A stretch of DNA of 64,000 bases. Source: Streptomyces sp. NL15-2K (GTDB lineage Bacteria; Actinomycetota; Actinomycetes; Streptomycetales; Streptomycetaceae). Below are positions 1 to 41,068 of this stretch, in pieces. Within the stretch, counting starts at the first letter, position 1. Each line of letters opens with the position of its first letter. The notes below the pieces were generated by a model that saw only the letters and a list, made by a program, of their open reading frames with translations, was not told where the DNA came from and searched no databases. The translations under genes and the position numbers were made by a program. The stretch spans positions 7,917,501 to 7,981,500 of the forward strand of contig NZ_CP130630.1 in NCBI RefSeq assembly GCF_030551255.1, in the 5' to 3' direction.

Positions 1-2838
1 CCGACGGGGCAACGGTCGCGCCCGGACCATGTGAAGCGGGCCGGAGTCCTGGAAGGCGTCGCCGAGTTCGACTCCACGTACTTCGGATACTCGCCGCGCG
101 AGGCGGACGTCCTCGACGTCCAGCAGCGCCTCATGCTCCAGTCGTCAGTGTCGCTGCTGGAGCGGGCCAACATCGATCCGCAGCGCACCCAGCAGCGGAT
201 CGGTGTGTTCGCCGGCTCGGGAATGAGTACCTACCTCTTCGGGGCACTCCGCCGCCGCGACCTGGTCGACTCGCTCGGCGAGATGGTCGTCCGACACGGC
301 AACGACAAGGACTTCCTGGCCACCCGGATCTCCTACAAGCTGAATCTGCGCGGGCCCAGCGTGAACGTGCAGACGGCGTGCTCGACCGGTCTCGTCGCCG
401 TCCACTCGGCCGTGCAGAGCCTGCTCCTGAACGAGTGCGACGCGGCCATCGCGGGCGCGGTGCACATACGGGTGCCGCAGGAGTCCGGATACCAGTACCA
501 GGTCGGCGGGGTGCTCTCGCCGGACGGCGTCTGCCGCCCGCTCGGCGCCGAGGCCAACGGCACGCTGTTCACCAACGGCCTCGGCCTCGTCCTGCTGAAG
601 CGGCTGCGCGACGCGATCGCCGACGGCGACGACGTGCACGCGGTGATCGCCGGTTCTGCGGTGAACAATGACGGTGCGGAGAAGGTGAGTTTCACCGCCC
701 CGAGCGTCTCGGGCCAGGTCGGAGTGCTCAGCGACGCCCTCCAGGTCTCCGGCGCCAAGCAGACGGACATCACCTACATCGAGGCGCACGGCACCGGGAC
801 CGCGCTCGGAGATCCCATCGAGATCGAGGCGATCAAGCAGGCGTACGGCCTCGACGGCGCCCGGTGCGGAATCGGTTCCCTCAAGGGCAACTTCGGGCAC
901 CTCAACATCGCGGCCGGCATCATCGGGCTGATCAAGGCGGCCCTGGTCCTGAAGCACAAGTACGTGCCGCCGACGGTGAACGTCGGCGAGGTCAACCCCG
1001 CGCTCGAACTGGACGGTTCACGCTACTTCGTGACCACCGAGGGGCACCCGCTCGACGGTGACGGAGACACCTGGGCGGGCGTCAGCGCGTTCGGCATGGG
1101 CGGCACCAACGGCCACGTCATCCTGAAGAGCTTCGAGCAGACGCCGGCCGAGCCCGCGGCACCCGCCGACGGCCCCAGCATCCTCACCTTCTCGGCGCGG
1201 TCCGAGGCCGCCCTGCGCGGCCAGGCGACCGCACTGGCACAGCATCTCGCCGCGCACCCGGAGGGTTCGCTCGCCGAGTACGCGTACACGCTGCGCGAGG
1301 GAAGGACACGGCACCCCTACCGGGCATCGCTGGCCGCGGTCGACCGGGCAGAGGCGGTCTCCCGTCTGAAGGCCGGGCGGTACCACCGGGGAGCCGAGGC
1401 GGACTCCGACGAGATCGCGTTCGTCTTCGCGGGCCAGGGAACGCAGCGCGGGGCGATGGGAGCCGTACTCGCCACGAAGAACGAGCGCTTCGCCCGCCGG
1501 CTCGACGAGGCGACCGCCGCGGTGAACGAGCACATGGACTTCGACGTGAACACGTACCTCGGGTCCGACGGCCAGGTGGACAGCATCGACACCTCGGTGG
1601 CGCAGCCGCTCCTGTTCGCCGTCGAGTACGCGCTGGCGGCCACCCTCATCGACTCGGGCGTCCGGCCCCGGTACGTCCTGGGACACAGCCTCGGCGAGAT
1701 CGTCGCCGCGACCGTCGCGGGCGTGTTCGACCTGCGGTCGGCCGCGGCGCTCGTCGTGACGCGGGCGCGGCTCATGGGACGCTGCGAGACCGGGGCGATG
1801 CTCGCCGTCGATCGCCTGGAGCCCTTCGCGGACCTGCTGGACGGCGGCTCCCTGGTGGTCGCGGCGGCCAACTCCCCGCAGCAGCACGTGTTGTCCGGCA
1901 GCCACGAGGCCATCGACGCGGCTGCCGCGCTCGCCGTCGACGCCGGTGTCCACCACCAGCGACTGGCGACATCGCACGCGTTTCACTCGCCGCTCATGCG
2001 GGAGGCCGCAGACCGGTTCCTGGAGTTCCTCACGTCCTGCACCTTCCGGGCGCCATGGATCCCGCTGGTGTCGAACATCACCGGCGGGCTCCTCACGGAG
2101 TACGAGGCCCGGAGCCCGCACTACTGGGCGGACCATCTGCTGCGTACGGTCGACTTCGCCACCTCGGTGGACACACTGCGGCGCTTGGGCGTGCGCCGGT
2201 TCATCGAGATCGGCCCCGGCCGGTCGATGAGCAACCTGGTGCGGGCCGGCTTCGGGCCCGAGGCTGCCTCGACCCTCGAACTGGCCCAGACGCTGGGCGA
2301 ACCGGAGCACGAGGACGAGTCGTTCGCGGACGCCGTCGCACTGGGCTGGACCGCCGACCCCGACGTGCCCATCGACGAGTACGCGAGCGCCGCACGGATG
2401 ACGTCGCTGCCCACGTACGCATTCGAGCGGCACGTCCACTGGGTGGAGCCGGCGCTCGGCTTCGGCGGGGACACCGCCCGTTCCGGTGAGCCTGCGGCAC
2501 AGGCCCCCGCCACCGGACCGGCGACCACCACCGGACCGGCGACCACCACCGAGCCGGCGGCAGGCGACTGCCCCGGCGACCTCGACGATCCCACGGAAGA
2601 GATCCGACGGGTCGTCGGGCAGATCTTCGAGAGCTTCCTCGGCGAGGCGGCCTCGGCCCACGACCGCGGGTTCTTCGAACTCGACGGAAACTCGCTGATG
2701 GCGATCCAGCTGATCAACAAGCTCCGCGAGACCTTCGAACTCGACTTCTCTGTCCGGGACTTCTACGAGAACAGCTCCGTGTCGGGAACCACGAACGTGA
2801 TCAAGGCACTGCTGCTGGAGGAGCCCGCACATGTCTGA
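1..2838 (+). CDS. Modular type I polyketide synthase, KS-AT-ACP (5' end cut by window)
   Basis: This protein condenses an acyl chain with an extender unit on its own ACP; it has no KR, DH or ER domain. The frame is open from base 1 and the sequence before the GTG at 31 still reads like ketosynthase, so the true start lies to the left. The KS has the active Cys in TACSTG (codon at 379), the first His in EAHGTGT (787) and the second in KGNFGH (898). The AT starts near 1415 (FAGQGTQ) with nucleophile Ser in GHSLGE (1687). It has an HAFH motif (1975-1986), which in actinobacterial ATs goes with malonyl-CoA. A Pro/Thr-rich linker (about 2490-2570) leads to an ACP whose phosphopantetheine Ser lies in DGNSLM (2692). 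The stop overlaps the start of the monooxygenase gene by 8 bp. Product unknown. Confidence 0.95.
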   Translation, partial: PTGQRSRPDHVKRAGVLEGVAEFDSTYFGYSPREADVLDVQQRLMLQSSVSLLERANIDPQRTQQRIGVFAGSGMSTYLFGALRRRDLVDSLGEMVVRHGNDKDFLATRISYKLNLRGPSVNVQTACSTGLVAVHSAVQSLLLNECDAAIAGAVHIRVPQESGYQYQVGGVLSPDGVCRPLGAEANGTLFTNGLGLVLLKRLRDAIADGDDVHAVIAGSAVNNDGAEKVSFTAPSVSGQVGVLSDALQVSGAKQTDITYIEAHGTGTALGDPIEIEAIKQAYGLDGARCGIGSLKGNFGHLNIAAGIIGLIKAALVLKHKYVPPTVNVGEVNPALELDGSRYFVTTEGHPLDGDGDTWAGVSAFGMGGTNGHVILKSFEQTPAEPAAPADGPSILTFSARSEAALRGQATALAQHLAAHPEGSLAEYAYTLREGRTRHPYRASLAAVDRAEAVSRLKAGRYHRGAEADSDEIAFVFAGQGTQRGAMGAVLATKNERFARRLDEATAAVNEHMDFDVNTYLGSDGQVDSIDTSVAQPLLFAVEYALAATLIDSGVRPRYVLGHSLGEIVAATVAGVFDLRSAAALVVTRARLMGRCETGAMLAVDRLEPFADLLDGGSLVVAAANSPQQHVLSGSHEAIDAAAALAVDAGVHHQRLATSHAFHSPLMREAADRFLEFLTSCTFRAPWIPLVSNITGGLLTEYEARSPHYWADHLLRTVDFATSVDTLRRLGVRRFIEIGPGRSMSNLVRAGFGPEAASTLELAQTLGEPEHEDESFADAVALGWTADPDVPIDEYASAARMTSLPTYAFERHVHWVEPALGFGGDTARSGEPAAQAPATGPATTTGPATTTEPAAGDCPGDLDDPTEEIRRVVGQIFESFLGEAASAHDRGFFELDGNSLMAIQLINKLRETFELDFSVRDFYENSSVSGTTNVIKALLLEEPAHV

Positions 2839-4021
2839 CGGATCCTTCCTGGACGCCGGGCAGCTGGCGCAGCTCAAGGCGAAACTGAGGTCGGGCACCA
2901 CGGGCACACCCGCCCCCGCACCCGTATCCGCCTCAGCGCCCGCCCCCGAGAGGCAGCGCGATCCGGCCGCGTCCTCCCTCCCCGACCTCGGCGTGATCTT
3001 CTTCTCCGGACTGAGTGGCGACAGCGACCCCTACGACCTTCTCCTGGACGTCTCCCGCTTCGTCGACGGCGCGGGCTTCGGCGCGATCTGGACTCCGGAG
3101 CGGCACTTCACCGAGGCCGGCGGCGCCTACCCCAACCCGGCCGTCCTGGGCTCCGCCCTGGCCGTGATCACCGAGAACGTGCGGATCCGGTCGGGAAGCG
3201 TGAACCTTCCGCTGCACGACATCCTGCGCGTGGCGGAGGAATGGGCCCTCGTCGACAACCTGTCGGGCGGGCGCGTGGACCTCGCGGTGGCGCCCGGCTG
3301 GCACTCACGGGACTTCGTCCTCAACCCCGAGGGCTACGAGAGCCGGGGGCAGGCGCTCAACGCGGCGCGGGAGCAGTTGCAACAGCTGTGGCGCGGAGTC
3401 CCCGTCGAACGGACCGACCCCGCCGGGGAACGCCACGACATCCTGACCTTCCCCCGGCCCGTGCAGTCTCAACTCCCCGTCTGGCTGACCTCGTCGAAGA
3501 GCGTCGACTCGTGGCGCTTCGCGGGCGAACAGGGCCTCAACGTCCTGTCGGCCCTCATCAACTTCGGGCCGGCCGAACTGCAGAAGCGGATCGACGTCTA
3601 CCGCGAGGCGCGGGCCCGGGCCGGCCTCGACCCCGACCGGGGTGTCGTCTCGCTGATGCTGCACACCTACGTCGGCGTCGACGCGTACGAGGCCGTGGAG
3701 CGCGTGCGGACACCCATGACCGAGTACCTGAGTTCCTTCGTCACCCAGCACGCGACCTCGGGACAGAGCGAGTCGCAGGACAAGTCCCGGACGCTGCAGA
3801 ACCTCGACGCGGACCGGGACGAGTTCCTCGAGATGGTGTTCCAGCGGTACGTCTCCTCCAGCTCGCTCATCGGCGATGTGAAGCAGGCCCGGCAGACGCT
3901 GGAGGGGTTCCGGGACATGGGCGTGGACGAGGTCGCGTGCCTCGTGGACTTCGGGCTGTCCAAGGACGAGGTGCTGGCGAGCCTCACCCGGCTCTCCTCG
4001 CTGCTCGAGAAAGGAGCATGA
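2831..4021 (+). CDS. Luciferase-like FMN-dependent monooxygenase, MupA/Atu3671-like secondary-metabolism type
   Basis: A 396-residue bacterial-luciferase-fold oxygenase that should use reduced FMN and O2. The core (from about residue 50, LGVIFFSG) carries the family's ERHF, RSGSVNLPLHD and GGRVDLAVAPGWH segments. The N-terminal 45 residues begin with a helix-like stretch (LDAGQLAQLKAKL) and a Pro/Ala-rich linker. This resembles the junctions seen where such domains are built into PKS/NRPS lines, and may dock on the ACP of the preceding gene. The ATG at 2831 overlaps the PKS stop. The FMN reductase at 6184 is the likely supplier of reduced flavin. Hydroxylation of a carrier-bound intermediate is a reasonable guess; the exact oxidation cannot be read from sequence. 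Confidence 0.9.
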   Translation: MSDGSFLDAGQLAQLKAKLRSGTTGTPAPAPVSASAPAPERQRDPAASSLPDLGVIFFSGLSGDSDPYDLLLDVSRFVDGAGFGAIWTPERHFTEAGGAYPNPAVLGSALAVITENVRIRSGSVNLPLHDILRVAEEWALVDNLSGGRVDLAVAPGWHSRDFVLNPEGYESRGQALNAAREQLQQLWRGVPVERTDPAGERHDILTFPRPVQSQLPVWLTSSKSVDSWRFAGEQGLNVLSALINFGPAELQKRIDVYREARARAGLDPDRGVVSLMLHTYVGVDAYEAVERVRTPMTEYLSSFVTQHATSGQSESQDKSRTLQNLDADRDEFLEMVFQRYVSSSSLIGDVKQARQTLEGFRDMGVDEVACLVDFGLSKDEVLASLTRLSSLLEKGA

Positions 4022-4024
4022 CCT

Positions 4025-4588
4025 GTGCGGACGTACAGCTTCCAGGGTGTCCTGCCGCGTATCCACCCGAGCGTCTACGCGTTCGACGACGTGGTGGTGA
4101 TCGGGGACGTGGAGATCGAGGAGGGCGTCAGCCTGTGGCCCGGCGTCACCATTCGCGGGGACAAGGGAAAGGTGCGGATCGGCCAGGGGTCGAACATCCA
4201 GGACCATGCCATGCTGCACTCGGACCCCGACAGTCCGCTGGTCGTCGGACGGGACGTCACGATCGCCCACAGCGCGGTGCTGCACGGCTGCTCGGTCGCC
4301 TCCGGAACGGTCGTCGGCATCGGCGCGATACTGCTGAACGGGGCCCGGGTAGGGGAGAGTTGCCGGGTGTCGGCGGGAGTCGTGCTCGGCGTCGGGCCCC
4401 TCTACCCGTCCCGGAGCCTCATCGCGGGCACCCCGCCCTCCGCCCTGATGACGCTCAGCGACAGCGACGTGGCGGTGCTGGACGAGACGGCCGCCGAGTA
4501 CCGGCAGCTCGCCGAGCAGTACCGGACGGGCCTGCGCCGCCTCGCTGTGCCGGGCCATGAACGGTCCGAGACGTGGGCCGATGCCTGA
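4025..4588 (+). CDS. Gamma-carbonic-anhydrase family left-handed beta-helix protein
   Basis: A 187-residue protein with the hexapeptide-repeat pattern of the gamma-CA/PaaY/YrdA family. The three expected metal-binding histidines are present as His65 (MLHSD), His82 (IAHS) and His87 (LHGC), with the family's 5-residue spacing between the last two. The GTG start at 4025 follows AAAGGAG at 4010-4016 by eight bases, and the gene begins 3 bp after the monooxygenase stop. It may be a carbonic anhydrase, but members of this fold in degradative or biosynthetic operons (for example PaaY) can hydrolyse thioesters. Its position between a PKS, an oxygenase and a thioesterase makes a thioester or acyl-handling role plausible. 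That role is inference. Confidence 0.85.
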   Translation: MRTYSFQGVLPRIHPSVYAFDDVVVIGDVEIEEGVSLWPGVTIRGDKGKVRIGQGSNIQDHAMLHSDPDSPLVVGRDVTIAHSAVLHGCSVASGTVVGIGAILLNGARVGESCRVSAGVVLGVGPLYPSRSLIAGTPPSALMTLSDSDVAVLDETAAEYRQLAEQYRTGLRRLAVPGHERSETWADA

Positions 4589-5373
4589 TGCTCCATCAAC
4601 CCCTCTCATCAGACGCCCGGTTGCTCCGGCGTCATGGTCCCGGGCACCGGACGGCGGCCGTCTGCTTCCACCACGCGGGCGGGGGCATGTCCGCCTACCG
4701 GGGCTGGGCGGAACAGCTCGCCCCGCACCTGGACGTGGTCCTGGTCCAGCTCAAGGGGCGCGAGGACCGCACGGCGGAACCACTCACCGACGACCTGGGC
4801 GATCTCGCCGTGCGGATCGCCCGGGACATCTGCGGGATGCCGTACGACGACCTCGTACTGGTCGGCCACAGCATGGGCGCGACCATCGCGTGGGCGGTCG
4901 CCGACGCGATCTGGGCGGTCTACCGCCGCCGCGTGCGCGTGGTGCTGTCGGCTCAGGCGCCACCGCCGTACACCGACCGGATCGGCCCTGTCGGCCGGCA
5001 GCCGGTGGGGGAGGTGCGGCACGGCCGGACCGTCGACGTCTCCGGAGCCGTGGGCGACGCCCTGACGAGTGCCGCGGACGCCTTCCACTCGGACATCCTG
5101 GCCGCGGACCTGGCCTGGATGTCCCGCGAGTTCCCCGCGCTGGTTCCCCGGCCGCTCCCGGTCGACCTGTACTGCGTGGCGGCCGGCCAGGACCCGCTGC
5201 TGGCACCCGAGGACATGGCCGGCTGGGCGTCGCTGACGACCGGGCACTTCTCGCAACGGACGGTTCCCGGCGGACACATGTACCTCCTGACGGATCCCAC
5301 GCCTGTGCTCGGGCTCGTCGAGACGCTCGCGGCCCAGGGCTCGACAGACAGGACGGTCGGCCATGTCCGGTGA
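4588..5373 (+). CDS. Type II thioesterase (alpha/beta hydrolase)
   Basis: A stand-alone thioesterase of the kind that clears stalled or wrong acyl groups from carrier proteins, or releases the product. The nucleophile is Ser95 in GHSMG, the acid Asp202 in GQDPL and the base His230 in GGHMYL. The early FHHAGGG motif is typical of the family. I chose the ATG at 4588, which shares bases with the preceding stop (TGATG, 4586-4590). A GTG at 4573 would add five residues deeper inside the upstream gene. The 261-residue length is normal. The 3' end overlaps the next start by 11 bp. Confidence 0.93.
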   Translation: MLHQPLSSDARLLRRHGPGHRTAAVCFHHAGGGMSAYRGWAEQLAPHLDVVLVQLKGREDRTAEPLTDDLGDLAVRIARDICGMPYDDLVLVGHSMGATIAWAVADAIWAVYRRRVRVVLSAQAPPPYTDRIGPVGRQPVGEVRHGRTVDVSGAVGDALTSAADAFHSDILAADLAWMSREFPALVPRPLPVDLYCVAAGQDPLLAPEDMAGWASLTTGHFSQRTVPGGHMYLLTDPTPVLGLVETLAAQGSTDRTVGHVR

Positions 5374-6187
5374 CGCACGCGACGGCGCCCGGGTGCGCGT
5401 CGGCTTCCAGCGGAGCACCCCGCCGTTCTCCTACGCGCCGACCGCGGACTTCAGCCCCGTCGGCTACTCCGTGGACCTGGCGCGGCTGGTCCTCGCCACG
5501 GTCCTCGGCACCCCTCACACGGCTCCGCCGCTGGAGGCCGTCGAGGTCACCTCCTCCACGAGGGAGGCACTGCTCGCCCGGCATCGCATCGACATCGAAT
5601 GCGGTTCGACGACGATCACGCAGGCGCGAGCGCGGCGCTGTGCCTTCAGCAGGCCGATCTTCCGCACCTCGCACCGGATCGCGGTGAAGCCCGGTGTGAA
5701 GGTGACGGCAGGCGGTCTGCACGTTGTGGGTATCCAGGGCTCGACGAGCCAGGCCGCGCTGGAAACCCGGACGGACCTCGGATTCGACTGGACTTTCGTG
5801 GGCGTGGCGTCCATCGGTGAGGCCAGGGATGTCTTCCTCGACGACCCGCGGGTCGGTGCCATGGTGGCGGACGAGGTGATTCTCCGGGCACTGCTGCGCG
5901 GCGGCGGCACACCGGAAGGAATCAGACTCCTGGACACGCGGCTGGGTGGGGAGTTCTACGGATTCATGATGCGGCGTCACGACCAGGAATTCGTCCGCGC
6001 CGTCGATGACGCACTGGCCGAGGTGTTCGCGTCCGACGCGTATCCAAGGCTCCTCCAGTCGTGGTTCGTCGACGAACTCCCCGGTCTTGGATTCGGCCTG
6101 GGGATGGATCCCGCGGACGACGCATTCGTGCGGCGGGAACGGCAGGCGGGGGACCACCCTGCCGATCGGAAGAGGCGGCTTCGATGA
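5363..6187 (+). CDS. Amino-acid-binding-protein fold (SBP family 3) without signal peptide
   Basis: A 274-residue protein that reads along its length like a periplasmic amino-acid-binding protein. In histidine/LAO-type binding proteins an Arg after the ITxxR segment holds the ligand carboxylate; Arg89 (TITQAR) is in that place. The GST motif is at 126-128, and an Asp at 170 (VADEV) fits the amino-group contact. The N-terminus is charged, with no hydrophobic core, lipobox or Tat motif, so it should stay in the cytoplasm. No ABC permease or ATPase is nearby. The precedent is PheC (cyclohexadienyl dehydratase), an enzyme evolved from this fold. An enzyme or chaperone acting on an amino-acid-like intermediate is inferred. 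Start overlaps the thioesterase; the stop shares ATGA with the reductase. Confidence 0.8.
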   Translation: MSGDARDGARVRVGFQRSTPPFSYAPTADFSPVGYSVDLARLVLATVLGTPHTAPPLEAVEVTSSTREALLARHRIDIECGSTTITQARARRCAFSRPIFRTSHRIAVKPGVKVTAGGLHVVGIQGSTSQAALETRTDLGFDWTFVGVASIGEARDVFLDDPRVGAMVADEVILRALLRGGGTPEGIRLLDTRLGGEFYGFMMRRHDQEFVRAVDDALAEVFASDAYPRLLQSWFVDELPGLGFGLGMDPADDAFVRRERQAGDHPADRKRRLR

Positions 6188-6708
6188 ACACCACTGAGAT
6201 CACCTTGCAGGACGCTTTCAAGGACGTCATGGCCTGCGTGGCCACGCCCGTGTCGATCGTGACGGCCATGCCCCGGCGCGGAGCGCCGCGCGGGGCGACC
6301 GTCAGCGCCTTCACCTCGCTGTCGATCACGCCGACGATGGTCCTGGTCAGCCTGGACCGGAGGTCGCAAACGCTCGACGTCATCCGCGAGTCGGGTCGCT
6401 TCGGCCTCAACGTGCTCGGTGCCGACCAGGACGATCTGGCGATGTCCTTCGCCTCCCGGAGCGACATCGACAAGTTCCGCGGAACGTCCTGGGACGTCGA
6501 CCACGACCTCCCGCGCATCGCGGGGGCCTCGGCATGGATCGCGTCGACCGTGGCCGATCTGGTGGACGGCGGAGACCACGTCATCGTGCTCGGTCGCGTC
6601 GACGCCGCGGAGACCACGGGGAGCAAGGCACCACTGGTCTATTACCGACGCAGCTTCGGGACCCACCAGCCGCATCATGTCTCCGAGAGTGTGAAGGTCC
6701 CGGAATGA
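6184..6708 (+). CDS. NAD(P)H:FMN reductase, HpaC/flavin reductase-like domain
   Basis: A 174-residue split-barrel flavin reductase. It has the family features VATPVSIVTA near the N-terminus, GATVSAFTSLSITPTMVLVSL, and FGLNVL about 75 residues in. Such proteins reduce free FMN with NAD(P)H and hand it to a partner monooxygenase, here most likely the luciferase-like enzyme at 2831. The ATG at 6184 overlaps the preceding stop (ATGA), and its own stop overlaps the next ATG in the same way, so translation is probably coupled. An upstream in-frame start lies inside the binding-protein gene and was rejected. Confidence 0.92.
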   Translation: MNTTEITLQDAFKDVMACVATPVSIVTAMPRRGAPRGATVSAFTSLSITPTMVLVSLDRRSQTLDVIRESGRFGLNVLGADQDDLAMSFASRSDIDKFRGTSWDVDHDLPRIAGASAWIASTVADLVDGGDHVIVLGRVDAAETTGSKAPLVYYRRSFGTHQPHHVSESVKVPE

Positions 6709-8420
6709 GGAACAGAGTCCGAATCGGACTGCTCGGATGCGGAACGGTCGGGGAGGAGTTCGCCGAACTGCTCGTCGAGCGGCGCGCCGCGATCGAGGAG
6801 GTCGCGGGAGTGTCCTTGGAGCTGGTGCGGGTCGCCGTGCGCGATCCGGGCAAGCCACGCTCCCCGGTGCTGGACCCGGAGATGTTCACCGGCGACGCCT
6901 ACGAGGTGGTCAAGGCCGAGGACGTCGATGTCGTGGTCGAGCTGATCGGCGGCACCTCACCGGCCGGAGAGCTGGTGACGGCAGCGCTGCACTCCGGAAA
7001 GTCGGTCGTGACCGCCAACAAGGAGCTCGTCGCCGACGCGGGCCCCGAGCTGTTCGCCGCGGCCGACCGGGCGGGGGCCGACCTCTTCTTCGAGGCGGCG
7101 GCCGTGGCGGCCGTGCCCATCCTGCGACCCATGCGGGAGTCCTTGCTGGCCGAGGACGTGACGCGGGTGGCCGGCATCGTCAACGGCACCACGAACTTCG
7201 TGCTCACCCGCATGACGGCCGAGGGGCTGAGCTTCGACGAGGCGCTGGCCAAGGCCCAGGAGCTGGGATACGCCGAGCCCGAGGCGAGCGCCGACATCGA
7301 GGGCACCGACGCGGCGTCCAAGATCGCCATTCTCGCCTCGCTGGCCTTCAACCGGTCGGTCTTGGCCGACGACGTCAGCCGGGAGGGCATCGTCGGCCTC
7401 GACCGCGAGGACTTCGAACTGGCCTCCCGGTTCGGTTTCGACATCAAGCTCCTGGGGGTGGCCGAGCGGTTCGCCGACGGCTCCGACGCGCACGGGACGA
7501 TCGGCGCCCAGGTCTTCCCCGCGCTGATCGCACGTGATCATCCGCTGGCGAGCGTCCGGGACAGCTTCAACGCGGTCTTCATCACCACCTCCGCCGCCGG
7601 TGAGCTGATGTTCTACGGGCATGGCGCCGGCCCCCGCCCGTCGGCGTCGGCGATCCTGGGCGATGTCGTCGGCGCCGCGGATCAGCGGTTGCGCGGCACG
7701 CACCACCGTGTCCCCGTCGGCCCGCCGGCGGCTATGCGGCCGACGGGGGAGCTGGTGCACTCCTACTACATCCGCGCCGACGTCGATGAGGCGCCGGGCG
7801 TCCTGTCCGAGGTGACAGGCGTGTTCGGGCGGCACGGAGTGTCGATCCGCACGGTGGACCAGCACGGCGCTGAGTCGCAGGCACGCATCGTGTTCATTAC
7901 CTTCCCGGCACCCGAGCACGCGCTGCACAGCGCGATGGACGAACTGCGGGGCCTCGGCCATGTCCGGGGCGTCGGGCGGGTGCTGCGAATCTACGCCCAG
8001 CAGCCGGAGTCCCATCCCGGCACCGGTGCGTCAGGACCCTTCCGGGCCCGGCGAACAAGCCAGGTCACAGCGGTCCGAGCAAGAGAAGAACAAGAGAAAC
8101 AGGAAAGGGCTCACCACATGTCCCAGCCGATACAGCTCGTCATCCACATCACCACGCTCCCGGGGCGCGGCAAGGACCAGATCGCCGCGTTCGAGCACCT
8201 CGCGCCGCTCGTGCGAGCCGAAGCGGGATGCCTCCAGTACGACCTGCACCAGGTGAGCGGCGACCCCGACCGCTTCGTTCTCATGGAGCGCTGGTCGTCC
8301 CAGGAGGCGCTCAGCGCGCACGACGCCACCCCGCACATGATCGAGGCCGACACGGCCAGTCCCGCGTTCCGAGCGGGCCCGGCGGAAGTGTTCCGTCTGG
8401 ACGCCGAACCCCTGGCCTGA
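6705..8420 (+). CDS. Homoserine dehydrogenase continuing in frame into an antibiotic-biosynthesis-monooxygenase (ABM) domain
   Basis: Residues 1-430 form a complete homoserine dehydrogenase: NAD(P)-binding GLLGCGTVG, TANKELV, IVNGTTNF, the GTDAASK segment with the expected catalytic Lys, and a C-terminal ACT domain starting near YYIRADVDEAPGVL. It would interconvert aspartate semialdehyde and homoserine. No stop follows: the frame runs through a charged linker of about 30 residues into a roughly 100-residue ABM domain (about 8118-8420). The start ATG at 6705 overlaps the reductase stop. A purine-rich run before an internal ATG at 8118 could also start the ABM domain separately. The window holds a second, housekeeping hom at 13151, so this copy is probably dedicated to the cluster. 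Confidence 0.88.
   Translation: MRNRVRIGLLGCGTVGEEFAELLVERRAAIEEVAGVSLELVRVAVRDPGKPRSPVLDPEMFTGDAYEVVKAEDVDVVVELIGGTSPAGELVTAALHSGKSVVTANKELVADAGPELFAAADRAGADLFFEAAAVAAVPILRPMRESLLAEDVTRVAGIVNGTTNFVLTRMTAEGLSFDEALAKAQELGYAEPEASADIEGTDAASKIAILASLAFNRSVLADDVSREGIVGLDREDFELASRFGFDIKLLGVAERFADGSDAHGTIGAQVFPALIARDHPLASVRDSFNAVFITTSAAGELMFYGHGAGPRPSASAILGDVVGAADQRLRGTHHRVPVGPPAAMRPTGELVHSYYIRADVDEAPGVLSEVTGVFGRHGVSIRTVDQHGAESQARIVFITFPAPEHALHSAMDELRGLGHVRGVGRVLRIYAQQPESHPGTGASGPFRARRTSQVTAVRAREEQEKQERAHHMSQPIQLVIHITTLPGRGKDQIAAFEHLAPLVRAEAGCLQYDLHQVSGDPDRFVLMERWSSQEALSAHDATPHMIEADTASPAFRAGPAEVFRLDAEPLA
8101..8120 (+). promoter_or_regulatory. Possible internal ribosome binding site and start for the ABM domain
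   Basis: AGGAAAGGG at 8101-8109 lies eight bases before an in-frame ATG at 8118, exactly where the ABM domain begins (SQPIQLVIHI). This arrangement would let a free ABM protein be made alongside the fusion. It could also be the leftover start of a once separate gene whose upstream stop was lost. Confidence 0.4.
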
Positions 8421-8425
8421 CCGCA

Positions 8426-8457
8426 GACAGGCCGCCGACACGGGTCGGCGGCCTGTC
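8426..8457 (+). terminator. Terminator of the biosynthetic operon
   Basis: A 14-bp perfect inverted repeat (8426-8439 with 8444-8457) around a four-base loop, starting five bases after the stop of the last operon gene. There is no clear T run, which is common for Streptomyces terminators. Confidence 0.8.
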
Positions 8458-9292
8458 CACTGCGGAGCAGGCCCTTGAGGAACTGCCCTGGTTCGCGTTC
8501 TGTCGCGAGTACAGGGCGATGCGCTGGCCAACTGCTGCGGCCAACACTCGTGAGGGCATCGCTGACGGACTCGGCGCGGTAACGCCGGCCCTGGTGGAGC
8601 AGGAACCGAAAATGCCGTCACCGGAAGACTCGAAGCGGCCGCCGCAGGTGCGAGCCCGGGGAAGCGGGCCTGCCAGGCCGCGCGGGCCGGAGTGGGCAGG
8701 AACACGTCCGTCCAGTGCCGGCGGACCAGATCGACTTTCAGATGCGACCGCAGGTCGGCCGCGGTCTGGGCCTCACGGATGACCCACTCGTACATGAGGA
8801 GCAGGTCGGCTTCGTCGGCGAGGTCGGATTCGTAGTGCAGGCCCCAGTCGATGTGCCGGGGCAGGGTCACAGCGCCGGAGGTCCGACCAATTCGTCGAGC
8901 GACTCCCGAAGCGCGTAGATCCTTCCTGCGGCGTACCTGCTCGTATGCCCAGCATGCCGTAAACCGTTGCGCCGTGGTACCGACGCTCGCATCCGACGCG
9001 GCGACGGGCCGCCCGCATCGTGCCGAGCACTGGCCCGCGAAAGTCAAACGGCCCTTTTCTCCGTGTGCCTTCCGACCGACCTCGTCGGAAACATGTAGGT
9101 CACAGTAGGTCACTTCCGGCGATGACGCTGCGATGCGGCCCTCCGTCCCGCAAATAGCCCGCGCAAGTCGAATTTGCGGGATCGGACATTTGGGATTCCA
9201 TCCGTGTGGCGCCGCAAAGCCGCAGGTAGAGGGCTCATCGGATCGAGTGGTCATGGCCAAGTGGGCCGTGTGCGTTATGGCATGCACAAGAA
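8458..9292. other. Gene-poor debris between operon terminator and tRNA terminator
   Basis: Apart from the fragment at 8651-8870 I see no convincing gene here. Frames on both strands are open only through GC bias and carry no recognisable domain, ribosome binding site or codon pattern. The stretch lies at the 3' side of a tRNA gene, where integrated elements often leave remnants. Confidence 0.6.
8651..8870 (-). pseudogene. Fragment of a small conserved-looking protein, degraded
   Basis: From a GTG at 8870 the minus strand reads a coherent protein-like stretch of about 73 residues (TLPRHIDWG, then LADEADLLLMYEWVIREA, ending near ARFPGLA). After that the frame drifts into low-complexity sequence and on into antisense of the ABM domain, with no sensible stop. 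This looks like the body of a small actinobacterial protein whose end has been lost. The function is unknown. It lies in the debris between the operon and tRNA-Arg. Confidence 0.4.
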
Positions 9293-9326
9293 AGGCCCTG
9301 AACTGCGTTTCTGCAGTTCAGGGCCT
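9293..9326 (-). terminator. Terminator of tRNA-Arg
   Basis: A perfect 14-bp stem (9293-9306 with 9313-9326) with a six-base loop, 10 bp downstream of the tRNA 3' end on the minus strand, followed in that direction by the T-rich TTCTTGT. Confidence 0.85.
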
Positions 9327-9336
9327 AAATTTCCGG

Positions 9337-9408
9337 TGCCCCCGGCAGGATTCGAACCTGCGCACACGGCTCCGGAGGCCGTTGCTCTATCCCCTGAGCT
9401 ACGGGGGC
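9337..9408 (-). tRNA. tRNA-Arg, anticodon CCG
   Basis: The minus strand folds as a 72-nt cloverleaf. The acceptor stem GCCCCCG pairs with CGGGGGC, with discriminator A at 9337. The anticodon loop CTCCGGA has anticodon CCG, reading CGG. The T arm is CAGGTTCGAATCCTG. The 3' CCA is not encoded. Its 3' end points towards the PKS operon, the usual orientation when an element has integrated into a tRNA gene. Confidence 0.96.
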
Positions 9409-10247: not shown

Positions 10248-11546
10248 GTGACCCCCGTCGAGCTCTCCCGTACCGTGCTGCGCGCGGTGCGTCGCGCTGT
10301 CGACGAGGGGGAGCTGAGCGTGACCGTTCCGGAGCGGGCCGTCGTCACGGTGCCCGGGCCCGGTGGCTGTGGGGACTACGCCACCAACATCGCTCTTCAG
10401 CTCGCCCGCCCGGCGGGGCAGCCGCCTCGCCGCGTCGCTGAGATCCTCCAGGCCCGGCTCCTCGGTACCGAACACGTCACCGACGTCGTCGTCACCGGGC
10501 CCGGGTTCCTCAACATCAGCCTGCGGAGCACCTCGTCCGTCGCTCTCGTCGAGGAGATCCTGCGGCGCGGATCGCGGTACGGACACGCCGACTGCTCCAC
10601 CGGGCAGCTCGTGCGGCTCCACGCCCCCCACGAAGTCCGCGCCCTGGTCGTCGCCGACGCCGTCGCCCGCCTCCTCCGCTCCCAGGGCGCCCTCGTCCGC
10701 ATCACAGCCGCGGCCCGCCCCGAGCCGGAGTGGGAGAGCGTCCTCGGCGTGCGCGTCGATGCCTTCGGCAGCCCTGATGCCCGGGCTGTGCCTGACGCCC
10801 GGACTCTCCCTGACGCCCGGGCTCTGCCTGATGCCCGGGCTGTGCCCGACGCCCGGACTCTCCCCGATGCCCGGGCCGTGCCCGACGCCCGGACTCTCCC
10901 CGACGCCCGGACCCTCCCGGACGCCCCCGCTCCCCGAGACACCCCCGCTCCCCTCGACGTCAACCTACGGCCCGTACCGGCGGCCCCTGGCGACGACCCC
11001 GTCCCCCTCGGCCGTGACGCCGCCCGCTGGGCCCTGCTCCACCCGGCCTCCCACGACCGGCCCCGTATCACCGACGAGCACCTCGCCCAGCGCGAGGGCA
11101 ACCCCCTCTTCCGCGTCCGTTACGCCCACGCCCGCACCCGGGTCCTGACCCGTAACGCCGCCGACCTGGGCTTCACCGCCGAGCCCGGGCCCACGGACAC
11201 CGCCGACGCCACAGACCTCGCAACCGCAAGCACCACAGACACCACAGACCTCGCAACCGCAAGCCCCACACGCACCACAGACACCACGGACGCCCTCCTC
11301 ACCACCCTCGCCGACCACACCCGCGTCCTCGCCCGTGCGGCAGCACACCGCACCCCCGACCGTCTCGCCCGGCACCTCGTCACCGTCGCCGATGCCGTCC
11401 TCCCTCTGCTGCCCGCCGTCCTGCCGCGCGGCGAGGAGAAACCCTCGGCCGCCCACCGCGCCCGGCTCGCCCTTGCCGAAGCCGCCGGGACGGTGCTGGC
11501 CGGCGGCCTGTCCCTGCTCGGTATCGACGCACCCGACCACCTCTGA
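10248..11546 (+). CDS. nrtL: ArgS-related anticodon-binding protein (NrtL-like), no catalytic core
   Basis: A 432-residue protein. The N-terminal part resembles the additional N-terminal domain of arginyl-tRNA synthetase ([13 protein letters not shown], then [11 protein letters not shown]). The C-terminal part resembles the DALR anticodon-binding domain ([18 protein letters not shown] onward). The Rossmann core with HIGH and KMSKS motifs is absent, so it should not charge tRNA. In place of the core lies a low-complexity region with a PDAR minisatellite (10773-10934) and a second duplicated Thr/Asp-rich segment (about 11212-11300). The GTG start at 10248 fits the conserved N-terminus. It sits just upstream of lysA. 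The role is unknown; tRNA binding is inferred. Confidence 0.85.
10773..10934 (+). repeat. 18-bp coding minisatellite (PDAR repeat)
   Basis: Eight tandem 18-bp units encode PDAR followed by AV, TL or AL (10773-10916), then one degenerate unit PDAPAP to 10934. The repeats stay in frame and sit in the hydrophilic middle of the ArgS-like protein. Near-identical units suggest recent slippage and copy-number variation between strains. Confidence 0.92.
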
Positions 11547-13150: not shown

Positions 13151-14443
13151 ATGATGCGTACGCGTCCGCTGAAGGTGGCGCTGCTGGGCTGTGGAGTGGT
13201 CGGCTCAGAGGTGGCGCGCATCATGACGACGCACGCCGACGACCTCGCCGCCAGGATCGGTGCTCCGGTGGAGCTCGCGGGGGTGGCCGTCCGGCGGCCC
13301 GACCGGGTCAGGGAAGGCATCGACCCGTCGCTCGTCACCACCGACGCCACCGCCCTCGTCAAACGCGGCGACATCGACGTCGTGGTCGAGGTCATCGGCG
13401 GTATCGAGCCCGCTCGTACGCTCATCACCACCGCCTTCGAGTACGGCGCCTCCGTCGTCTCCGCCAACAAGGCGCTCCTCGCCCAGGACGGCGCCGCCCT
13501 GCACGCCGCCGCCGAGGACCACGACGCGGACCTCTACTACGAGGCCGCGGTCGCCGGCGCCATCCCGCTGATCCGCCCGCTGCGCGAGTCCCTCGCCGGT
13601 GACAAGGTCAACCGGGTGCTGGGGATCGTCAACGGCACGACCAACTTCATCCTCGACAAGATGGACTCGACGGGGGCCGGCTACCAGGAGGCCCTCGACG
13701 AGGCCACCGCCCTGGGATACGCGGAAGCCGATCCGACCGCCGATGTCGAGGGCTTCGACGCCGCCGCCAAGGCCGCCATCCTCGCCGGCATCGCCTTCCA
13801 CTCGCGCGTGCGCCTCGACGACGTCTACCGCGAGGGCATGACCGAGGTCACCGCCGCCGACTTCGCCTCGGCGAAGGAGATGGGCTGCACCATCAAGCTG
13901 CTCGCCATCTGTGAGCGGGCCGAGGACGGCGGGTCGGTCACCGCGCGCGTGCACCCCGCGATGATTCCGCTGACCCACCCGCTCGCCTCCGTGCGCGGCG
14001 CGTACAACGCCGTGTTCGTGGAGTCCGACGCCTCCGGTCAGCTCATGTTCTACGGGCCCGGAGCCGGCGGTTCCCCCACCGCCTCCGCCGTGCTCGGCGA
14101 CCTCGTCGCCGTCTGCCGCAACCGGCTCAACGGCGCCACCGGACCGGGGGAGTCCGCGTACGCCGCCCTGCCCGTCTCGGGCATGGGGGCGGTCGTCACG
14201 CGTTACCACATCAGCCTCGATGTGGCGGACAAACCGGGTGTTCTCGCCCAGGTGGCGACCGTGTTCGCCGAGCACGGGGTTTCCATCGATACGGTTCGGC
14301 AGCAGGGCAAGGACGGCGAGGCGTCTCTCGTCGTCGTCACCCACCGTGCTTCCGACGCGGCCCTCGGCGGGACCGTCGAGGCGCTGCGCAAGCTGGACAC
14401 CGTGCGTGGTGTCGCCAGCATCATGCGGGTTGAAGGAGAGTAA
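13151..14443 (+). CDS. hom: Homoserine dehydrogenase (housekeeping)
   Basis: Reduces aspartate semialdehyde to homoserine for threonine and methionine synthesis. It has NAD(P)-binding LLGCGVVG, SANKALL, GIVNGTTNFIL, the catalytic Lys in FDAAAK, and a C-terminal ACT domain (YHISLDVADKPGVL) likely used for threonine feedback. The 430-residue length is typical. Two ATG codons stand together at 13151 and 13154; either fits the GAGG upstream. thrC follows after 6 bp and thrB after a longer gap, giving the common hom-thrC-thrB order. It is the paralog of the fused enzyme at 6705. Confidence 0.97.
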   Translation: MMRTRPLKVALLGCGVVGSEVARIMTTHADDLAARIGAPVELAGVAVRRPDRVREGIDPSLVTTDATALVKRGDIDVVVEVIGGIEPARTLITTAFEYGASVVSANKALLAQDGAALHAAAEDHDADLYYEAAVAGAIPLIRPLRESLAGDKVNRVLGIVNGTTNFILDKMDSTGAGYQEALDEATALGYAEADPTADVEGFDAAAKAAILAGIAFHSRVRLDDVYREGMTEVTAADFASAKEMGCTIKLLAICERAEDGGSVTARVHPAMIPLTHPLASVRGAYNAVFVESDASGQLMFYGPGAGGSPTASAVLGDLVAVCRNRLNGATGPGESAYAALPVSGMGAVVTRYHISLDVADKPGVLAQVATVFAEHGVSIDTVRQQGKDGEASLVVVTHRASDAALGGTVEALRKLDTVRGVASIMRVEGE

Positions 14444-38908: not shown

Positions 38909-39655
38909 ATGCCCATCTCTCCGAATCAGGGTTCCACCGGTGGCGGGACCCTGGTGACCATCACCGGCACCAACCTGTCCAACACGACCGCAGTGAACTT
39001 CGGCAGCAAGCCTGCCACGAGCGTCACCAACGTCTCCCCGACGCAGGTCACCGCCGTCTCCCCCTCGGGGACCGGCACGGTTGGGGTCACGGTGACCACC
39101 CCGGGCGGTACCAGCAACCCGGTGCCGTTCTTCTACGTCGGCGCTCCGTTCAAGTCGTCGCTGGGCGCTACCTCCGGGCCGCTGGCCGGCGGCAACACGA
39201 TCACCATCAACGGCACCGGGCTGTCGACGGCCAGCAGTGTGTCGTTCGGCGGGGTCACCGCCACCCCGACCGTGAGCAGTGACAGCTCGCTCAGCGTCAC
39301 GGTGCCCGCGGGCGCTGCGGCGGGGCCCGTGTCGGTGAGCGTGACCACGGCGGGCGGCACCAACAACGGCCTCAGCTACACCTACGTCGACATCCCCGTG
39401 GTCGGGACCATCGCCCCGACCGAGGGCTCGACCTCCGGTGGGACGGCGGTGACCATCACCGGAACCAACCTGGACAGCACGGACTCGGTCACCTTCGACG
39501 GTACTGCGGCGCCGTTCGCGGTGGTCAACGCGACCACGCTGTCCGTGGTCACTCCGCCCGGGACCGCGGGACCGGCCGACGTGGTCGTGACCAACCCCGC
39601 CGGGTCCGACACAGAGCTCGGCGGCTTCACCTACGTCGCGGGCCCCGGTATCTGA
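38909..39655 (+). CDS. IPT/TIG-repeat protein (three repeats)
   Basis: A 248-residue protein made almost wholly of three immunoglobulin-like TIG repeats, each opening with a PxxGSTxGGTxVTITGTNL-type strand and closing with VTVTTPGGTSN-type strands. There is no signal peptide, membrane helix, lipobox or sorting signal: the chain starts MPISPNQG, directly in the first repeat. The ATG at 38909 follows GAGGAG at 38896-38901; an open frame further upstream is not protein-like. The neighbour at 39806 is a longer protein of the same type. A binding or structural role is likely but the partner is unknown; export would need a leaderless route. Confidence 0.85.
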   Translation: MPISPNQGSTGGGTLVTITGTNLSNTTAVNFGSKPATSVTNVSPTQVTAVSPSGTGTVGVTVTTPGGTSNPVPFFYVGAPFKSSLGATSGPLAGGNTITINGTGLSTASSVSFGGVTATPTVSSDSSLSVTVPAGAAAGPVSVSVTTAGGTNNGLSYTYVDIPVVGTIAPTEGSTSGGTAVTITGTNLDSTDSVTFDGTAAPFAVVNATTLSVVTPPGTAGPADVVVTNPAGSDTELGGFTYVAGPGI

Positions 39656-39693
39656 CCGGTCCCATCGCCTCCGTGACAAGGAGGCGTTGAACC

Positions 39694-39731
39694 CCCGTCC
39701 GGGCGGGCTTCCCCCCCGCCGCCCGGACGGG
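39694..39731 (+). terminator. Terminator after the first TIG gene
   Basis: A 13-bp perfect stem (39694-39706 with 39719-39731) with a 12-base loop. A smaller hairpin (39666-39672 with 39680-39686) lies between it and the stop codon. Confidence 0.7.
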
Positions 39732-39740
39732 CTCGACCTC

Positions 39741-39764
39741 GCCGCCACGCCATGGCGTGGCGGC
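39741..39764. repeat. 24-bp perfect palindrome upstream of the second TIG gene
   Basis: The sequence centred on GCCATGGC at 39749-39756 is self-complementary across 39741-39764 (arms of 12 bp with no loop). It could be an operator for the second TIG gene or a further hairpin. Confidence 0.5.
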
Positions 39765-39805
39765 TCGTCAGATGGATTCCCAGTCCTGCGTGGAGGAGCA
39801 CAGTC

Positions 39806-41068
39806 ATGCCTGCCCCTGTGGTGTCTTCGGTCAGTCCCAACCAGGGACCGACCTCGGGTGGTACCACCGTCACCGTGACCGGAACCGACTTCACGGGAGT
39901 GACCAACGTCCGTTTCGGAGTCAAGACGGCCCCAACGTACGTCGTCGACAGCCCCACCACTATCAGGGCGGTGACTCCCACAGGCACCGGCACCGTGAAC
40001 GTCACCGTCAGCACGACCCAGGGCACGAGCAGCCAGTCGGTTCCGTTCACCTATGTCGCGGCTCCCTCCCTCTCGGCCCTGTCGCCGAATCAGGGCCCGC
40101 AGACCGGGGCGACGGTGACGGTGACGGGCACCAACCTCTCGGGTGCGACGGCGGTGCGGTTCGGCGGGGTGGCGGCGTCGTTCACTGTCGACAGCAGTAC
40201 GCGGATCACTGCGGTGGCTCCCGCCCGTGCGCCCGGTGCCGTGGGGGTCACGGTGACCACCCCCGGTGGCACCAGCAACGCCCTCACCTTCACCTACGCC
40301 GCAGTTCCCTCCGTCACCGGGCTGTCGCCGAATCAGGGCCCGCAGACCGGGGGGACGACGGTGACGGTGACGGGCACCAGCCTCTCGGGTGCGACGGCGG
40401 TGCGGTTCGGCGGGGTGGCGGCGTCGTTCACTGTCGACAGCAGTACGCGGATCACCGCGGTGGCCCCCGCCCAGGCGGCCGGTGCCGTGGGGGTCACGGT
40501 GACCACCCCCGGCGGCACCAGCAACGCCGCCGATCCCAACGCGTTCTTCTACTACGTCGCGCCGCCCTCTTTGACCGGCCTCGCCCCTCTCTCAGGACCC
40601 AAGGCGGGCGGCACCACGGTCACGCTCACCGGCAACGACCTCCTCGGTGCGACGGCGGTGCGGTTCGGCGGGGTGGCGGCGTCGTTCACTGTCGACAGCA
40701 GTACGCGGATCACCGCGGTGGCCCCCGCCCAGGCGACCGGTGCCGTGGCGGTCACGGTGACCACCCCCGGCGGCACCAGCAACCCCGTCGAATACGTCTA
40801 TCTCAACGACCCGCTGCTGGCCTCCCTGGCACCTGACCAGGGGTCGGTCCACGGTGGCACGGTCGTCACGCTGACCGGCAGCGATCTCGCGGCCACCACC
40901 GGTGTCACGTTCGGCGCCGTGCCCGCGACGTTCACCGTGGCTTCCCCGACGCAGATCACCACCGTCGCCCCGCCAGGCCTCGCGGGGCCGGTTTCCGTCA
41001 CGGTCACCACACCCGCCGGTACCAGCAACGGATTGACGTACACGCGGATCGCCGCGCCCGAGATCTGA
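39806..41068 (+). CDS. IPT/TIG-repeat protein (five repeats)
   Basis: A 420-residue protein of five TIG repeats, again with no signal peptide (starts MPAPVVSSVSPNQG). Repeats two to four share an identical core, GATAVRFGGVAASFTVD, and identical DNA over 68 bp, showing recent duplication or gene conversion. ATG at 39806 follows GGAGGAG by seven bases. It stands just behind the shorter TIG gene and is convergent with the chitinase. Confidence 0.85.
   Translation: MPAPVVSSVSPNQGPTSGGTTVTVTGTDFTGVTNVRFGVKTAPTYVVDSPTTIRAVTPTGTGTVNVTVSTTQGTSSQSVPFTYVAAPSLSALSPNQGPQTGATVTVTGTNLSGATAVRFGGVAASFTVDSSTRITAVAPARAPGAVGVTVTTPGGTSNALTFTYAAVPSVTGLSPNQGPQTGGTTVTVTGTSLSGATAVRFGGVAASFTVDSSTRITAVAPAQAAGAVGVTVTTPGGTSNAADPNAFFYYVAPPSLTGLAPLSGPKAGGTTVTLTGNDLLGATAVRFGGVAASFTVDSSTRITAVAPAQATGAVAVTVTTPGGTSNPVEYVYLNDPLLASLAPDQGSVHGGTVVTLTGSDLAATTGVTFGAVPATFTVASPTQITTVAPPGLAGPVSVTVTTPAGTSNGLTYTRIAAPEI
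40142..40713 (+). repeat. Three near-identical DNA repeats within the second TIG gene
   Basis: A 68-bp segment is identical at 40142-40209, 40388-40455 and 40646-40713 (spacings 246 and 258 bp, both multiples of three). Similarity continues on both sides over most of each unit, with a few synonymous differences. Confidence 0.95.

Follow-up and report, generated by a model that had tools for sequence, protein, structure and literature searches.

A putative 5-hydroxy-4-oxo-L-norvaline pathway with an extra homoserine dehydrogenase on a tRNA-integrated island of Streptomyces sp. NL15-2K

The operon at the left end of the analysed stretch of Streptomyces sp. NL15-2K DNA (64,000 nucleotides, hereafter the window) is real and more than a chance co-occurrence of genes, and its full gene set probably constitutes a minimal NRPS-PKS pathway for 5-hydroxy-4-oxo-L-norvaline (HON), with a second copy of the target enzyme, homoserine dehydrogenase (HSD), as resistance gene. 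HON, also known as RI-331 or (S)-2-amino-5-hydroxy-4-oxopentanoic acid, is an isomer of glutamate, and according to labelling in Streptomyces akiyoshiensis it reportedly derives from aspartate and acetate. It is described as a natural product of S. akiyoshiensis and other Streptomyces that inactivates its target, HSD (PMC9293202, PMC4302243), and it has been recognised for about 60 years as an amino acid active against mycobacteria and fungi (PMC9293202). In the open literature searched, we found neither a gene cluster for HON nor a described cluster with the present gene set, the latter in agreement with an earlier reading of the window made from the sequence alone (the sequence-only reading). 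If true, our assignment gives the genes for HON, makes S. atriruber and K. phosalacinea candidate producers, and supplies a marker of resistance at an antifungal target, carried within the cluster itself.

Operon layout and conservation among relatives

The interpretation given in the sequence-only reading was partly borne out. It had described seven genes on a single strand, mostly overlapping, and all of this holds: five of the six junctions overlap, the exception being a 3-bp gap between the LLM and hexapeptide genes. Its statement that there is no NRPS module is true of the window only because the window edge, which truncates the operon inside the PKS gene, cuts off the A-T gene. Extension to the left, which it had advised, placed the true PKS start at -155 and an A-T loading protein directly upstream, outside the window, at a spacing of 109 bp from the PKS gene (bases to the left of the window carry negative numbers, with 0 assigned to the one immediately before its first base). 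The last ORF had been read as HSD, which is present, but the same ORF also ends in a fused ABM domain. The full set comprises A-T, KS-AT-T, LLM, hexapeptide protein, thioesterase, solute-binding protein (SBP), flavin reductase, HSD and ABM. These genes, with those upstream and the tRNA repeat, are as follows.

about -4310..-3399, strand opposite to A-T, upstream of it: EamA exporter
about -3265..-2498, strand opposite to A-T, upstream of it: MmyB-like regulator
-2100..-265, outside the window: A-T adenylation-carrier protein, 611 aa (Pfam AMP-binding, AMP-binding_C, PP-binding)
1..2838 in the window, complete gene -155..2838, plus strand: KS-AT-T PKS module, 997 aa (Pfam KS, AT, PP-binding)
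2831..4021, plus strand: LLM flavin monooxygenase, MupA/TIGR04020 family (by TIGR04020 score)
4025..4588, plus strand: hexapeptide-repeat protein, gamma-carbonic-anhydrase/PaaY-like (below the cut-offs of those models)
ATG 4588 or GTG 4573 to 5373, plus strand: alpha/beta-hydrolase thioesterase (Pfam Thioesterase)
5363..6187, plus strand: family-3 solute-binding protein (SBP_bac_3), Glu/Asp-binding type by sequence and fold
6184..6708, plus strand: flavin reductase (Pfam Flavin_Reduct), predicted to work with the LLM
6705..8000, plus strand: second HSD with ACT domain, predicted self-resistance copy
8118..8420, plus strand: ABM monooxygenase-like domain, in frame with HSD (ORF 6705-8420, 571 aa)
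9335..9381, minus strand: 3' end of tRNA-Arg(CCG), 47 bp (gene 9335-9408), with an exact repeat at -4626..-4580 (47/47)

The genome that contains the window measures 12.4 Mb, and the close relatives found here are Streptomyces and Kitasatospora, represented among named genome contigs by S. atriruber and two K. phosalacinea strains. A-T, KS-AT-T, LLM, hexapeptide protein, SBP, flavin reductase and HSD occur in the same order in all eight loci compared (seven relatives and our own), the eight genomes all belonging to one family. The thioesterase is present in six of the eight loci and ABM in five; tblastn at E 1e-8 gave no thioesterase match in L042 or L047 and no ABM match in L054, L047 or L048. 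ABM is a separate called gene in three of the four relatives that bear it, lies in another frame in L053 and is fused in none; in the window HSD and ABM share one open frame, with an internal ATG kept at 8118. Flanking genes differ in several of the seven related loci, and the regulator and the exporter adjoin the cluster in five of the eight; the best NCBIfam match of the exporter is an amino acid/amine transporter model, below its cut-off. A search with the A-T protein in 394 genomes of the family found five genomes, our own included, with a match of at least 67% identity, the rest among the matches listed reaching 40% at most. The HSD, used as query, matched four genomes (ours among them) in a set of 392 from the genus at E 1e-180, and ours alone in a set of 396 from the phylum at E 1e-150.

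Proposed chemistry

In the proposed route, every step of which is deduced from protein families, the A-T protein would activate L-aspartate at its side-chain carboxyl and load it onto its own carrier, and the KS would accept the aspartyl group and condense it with malonate from the AT. The LLM and the flavin reductase would then hydroxylate the carbon adjoining the thioester, the hexapeptide protein and/or the thioesterase would hydrolyse the product, and the beta-keto acid would lose CO2 to give HON, which the EamA protein would export. Together, the aspartate side-chain carboxyl, one malonate, a single alpha-hydroxylation, hydrolysis and loss of CO2 would yield exactly HON. The cluster HSD would sustain threonine and methionine synthesis while HON inactivates the housekeeping enzyme. 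Family membership likewise speaks for three elements of the sequence-only reading, namely a small C2-extended product, an LLM and flavin reductase that would form a two-component oxygenase, and a single oxidation on the carrier; the aspartate-family partner it had proposed is plausible. Assembly logic of this kind is already known; the combination found here and the SBP without signal peptide are new within the searches made.

Judged by the motifs that mark KS, AT and carrier domains, the KS Cys/His/His, the AT GHSxG and HAFH (the latter presumably of malonyl type) and the carrier Ser are kept in all eight loci, and the carrier Ser is kept in both carriers, that of A-T and that of KS-AT-T. KS-AT-T has the motifs of a cis-AT type I PKS module. 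The absence of KR, DH and ER noted earlier stands: no such domain, and no condensation, reductase or reductive release domain, was matched in the cluster proteins.

The ten-residue code of the A domain, read from an alignment to LgrA with the conventional numbering of pocket positions (e.g. 239, 278), is DVRHFALLAK in all eight loci. In the wider A-T family, whose identities reach down to 37%, 74 of 77 rows (own included) have exactly the same code, one row lacks just its last residue and two differ. Arg239 and His278 presumably resemble the side-chain-activating MeAsp/D-Glu A domains of microcystin synthetase; text search found no open literature giving the microcystin codes. In a control of 27 nearby A domains, mostly picked as best matches to the A domain studied here, five carry the identical code and 19 carry both Arg239 and His278, so the code is not exclusive and was rejected as a pathway-specific mark. 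The five same-code domains lie in the NRPS genes L017, L018, L021, L024 and L031; within the short stretch inspected, a condensation-domain motif adjoins four of them and a KS motif none. Because the control shows code and residues in other A domains too, activation of aspartate at the side-chain carboxyl by the A-T protein is a reasoned guess.

Members of the A-T family also occur in Burkholderia, Pseudomonas, Marinobacterium and Rathayibacter, and such a spread beyond the close group means that the loading step may serve several products. The cluster might accordingly make another compound from aspartate and a C2 unit, such as a HON-containing peptide, unhydroxylated 4-oxonorvaline or a bulgecinine-like cyclised hydroxymethyl-proline, and the variable presence of ABM and thioesterase would agree with this. 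We nevertheless consider it unlikely, since the genes called in the island include no condensation or reductase domain and no second gene for loading an amino acid, and since it is HON itself that is known to target HSD. Plasmid matches were set aside: the best are at most 37% identical, and the two regions inspected contain other NRPS genes. The Rathayibacter protein, used as query against 394 class genomes, matched only the present genome and G139. Bulgecin was dropped as a described relative, the bulgecinine route being given as not known in PMC5472815.

For the hydroxylation step of the HON route, the LLM scores 393 bits against TIGR04020 (cut-off 244), a model that bears MupA's name, and its nearest solved structure by sequence is PuwE. 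It is predicted to be an alpha-hydroxylase of a carrier-bound beta-keto intermediate. According to PMC10952193, MupA alpha-hydroxylates an ACP-bound beta-keto chain and depends on a separate flavin reductase, acetoacetyl-ACP is not turned over by it, and alpha-hydroxy beta-keto thioesters are unstable. A second LLM above the TIGR04020 cut-off lies elsewhere in the genome (G000:C1:9611950-9612945, L072). The models closest to the hexapeptide protein are those of gamma-carbonic anhydrase and PaaY, neither of whose cut-offs it reaches; PaaY is a thioesterase, and the hexapeptide protein is a candidate releasing thioesterase.

The extra HSD and the solute-binding protein

All eight genomes have two HSD matches each (E up to 1e-40). 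Identity to the housekeeping HSD of the window is 82-100% for the housekeeping copies and 45-48% for the cluster copies, and in a quick tree with long branches flagged the eight cluster HSDs are split from the eight housekeeping ones by one branch with SH-aLRT 100. Recent duplication of the neighbouring hom (13151-14443) was rejected as the source of the cluster copy on the same grounds of identity and tree position; cluster HSD and hom are more than 1 Mb apart in G139, G611 and G698. Pairwise identities of the cluster HSD correlate with those of KS-AT-T (r 0.91), as do those of A-T (0.98), LLM (0.95), flavin reductase (0.95), SBP (0.80) and the hexapeptide protein (0.71). The lysines of the ANK and DAxxK motifs are intact in all 25 cluster HSD rows (24 distinct), so the enzyme looks catalytically active. 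A second HSD in the cluster beside the housekeeping copy has the pattern of target-copy self-resistance. No clear resistance mutation was found in the sequence comparisons of the cluster HSD. Its loop EAAAVAAVP is present in 25 of 25 rows at the place where Streptomyces housekeeping copies have EAAVAGAIP, but, being shared by 12 of the 111 other HSD rows, it gives no clear resistance signature; marked differences in the ACT domain include D362E and H400F.

The sequence-only reading had taken the HSD for a link to aspartate semialdehyde, and a biosynthetic role, in which the building block supplied or used is aspartate semialdehyde or homoserine, would suit an active enzyme that is present in the cluster in every one of the eight loci and whose gene overlaps its neighbour here. 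This link did not hold up well. The housekeeping HSD, present in all eight genomes, can already make homoserine in each, for which reason the likelihood of a precursor enzyme was lowered; the cluster copy stands apart from the housekeeping ones in the tree, its identities track the cluster, and HSD as the known target of HON fits the predicted chemistry. To our knowledge, no member of these families uses homoserine. Moreover, 11 A-T/SBP pairs outside Streptomycetaceae or in unnamed samples have no apparent contig-mate among the 120 HSDs listed, and outside the close group HSD may be an add-on. The one exception is an SBP/HSD pair, in which a distant SBP, P0229 (49%), and an HSD, P0017 (63%), apparently share a contig (both lie on one of length 4698), perhaps as a diverged cluster version that keeps its HSD. 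On balance a biosynthetic HSD appears distinctly improbable, and we infer that the cluster HSD is a self-resistance copy. Two further HSDs, P0019 (Streptomyces sp. NPDC053431) and P0020, with 57-59% identity, lie near the cluster type in the tree; no A-T or SBP match falls on their contigs among the matches listed, and they possibly belong to a second kind of HSD-linked cluster.

The SBP is the most unusual part of the cluster. Its nearest relatives by sequence and fold are Glu/Asp-binding proteins. Residues R17, S64, R67, S82, T84, R89 and D170 are invariant in 64 sequences (three fragments and the outlier P0264 excluded); the site residues were matched to those of DEBP, whose histidine is not conserved (Ile151 instead). 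By eye and with 15-residue hydropathy, no signal peptide or lipobox was seen in 67 family members (a few of them fragments), with P0264 as the sole exception, and no permease or ATPase was found among the genes called at -4626..9381 by a simple caller, which missed the regulator. The protein is presumably cytosolic and probably deals with one of the pathway's acidic amino acids, be it aspartate, HON or the diacid that has yet to lose CO2, in the last case possibly as its decarboxylase. Relatives of both A-T and SBP are found in Pseudomonas, Marinobacterium and Rathayibacter, and the SBP apparently lies on the same contigs as the A-T family in other phyla too, which raises the question of a transporter-type binding protein without signal peptide in a biosynthetic operon across phyla.

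It is possible, though we would not call it probable, that the SBP fold has been recruited in the HON pathway as a cytosolic enzyme, its likeliest role being to decarboxylate 2-amino-5-hydroxy-4-oxoadipate or to assist in releasing it, with A-T and SBP forming a core common to Actinobacteria and Proteobacteria for ketide chemistry on the aspartate side chain. Alternatively, the SBP itself might be the true self-protection, a cytosolic sponge for the product, while the HSD merely tops up the supply of threonine and methionine. The missing signal peptide, the retained Glu/Asp-type site residues, the isomerism of HON with glutamate and the presence of the SBP in all eight loci would fit such a sponge. 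However, a one-to-one binder would be a poor defence against an abundant secreted product, and it is HSD that is the known target, which leaves this explanation very improbable.

The genomic island

The cluster is mobile, in the sense of lying on a tRNA-integrated 14-kb island: the tRNA-Arg repeats at both borders put exporter, regulator and cluster in one unit. A 750-bp repeat at the same borders (8635-9381 versus -5330..-4580) is 88.7% alike and ends in the tRNA-Arg 3' end, of which a near copy (46/47 bp) is present at -15784; a third, partial copy of the 750-bp repeat lies at -34707. It looks as if several islands were stacked at one tRNA-Arg gene. Within the island borders the simple caller called no integrase; in the neighbouring segment, a recombinase-like fragment recognised by eye (-12676..-12302) has no Pfam match. 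The cluster is near lysA and hom-thrC because the island was inserted at the tRNA-Arg site, and since the seven other loci contain no tRNA genes, this site is a feature of the present genome. Nearby, 10248-11546 encodes arginyl-tRNA synthetase N-terminal and DALR domains, its catalytic domain being unmatched in Pfam, and contains an internal direct repeat at 10772-10926. Elsewhere in the window, ORFs at 38954-41068 contain what we take to be IPT/TIG-like units.

Comparison with known systems

Among the closest known systems, HON (RI-331) of Streptomyces is the predicted product, and its target matches the extra HSD of the cluster, the link between the two being our inference. The iso-MeAsp/D-Glu A domains of microcystin and nodularin synthesis presumably also have Arg239 and His278 in the pocket and activate the side-chain carboxyl, as proposed for the A-T protein, but they belong to long NRPS-PKS systems and their other code residues differ. 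The mupirocin MupA bimodule likewise uses an LLM of this family, which works in trans on a beta-keto thioester bound to a carrier; it belongs to a trans-AT PKS, its KS is predicted not to elongate, and no flavin reductase was found in its cluster (PMC10952193). The operon studied here, in contrast, is cis-AT, consists of a single module and has its own flavin reductase. The Glu/Asp ABC-transporter binding proteins of the DEBP type (2vha/2ia4) resemble the SBP in fold and in Glu/Asp site residues, whereas the SBP lacks a signal peptide, belongs to a biosynthetic operon and has neither a permease nor an ATPase called alongside it. That an SBP fold can become an enzyme is known from cyclohexadienyl dehydratase (PMC7683729).
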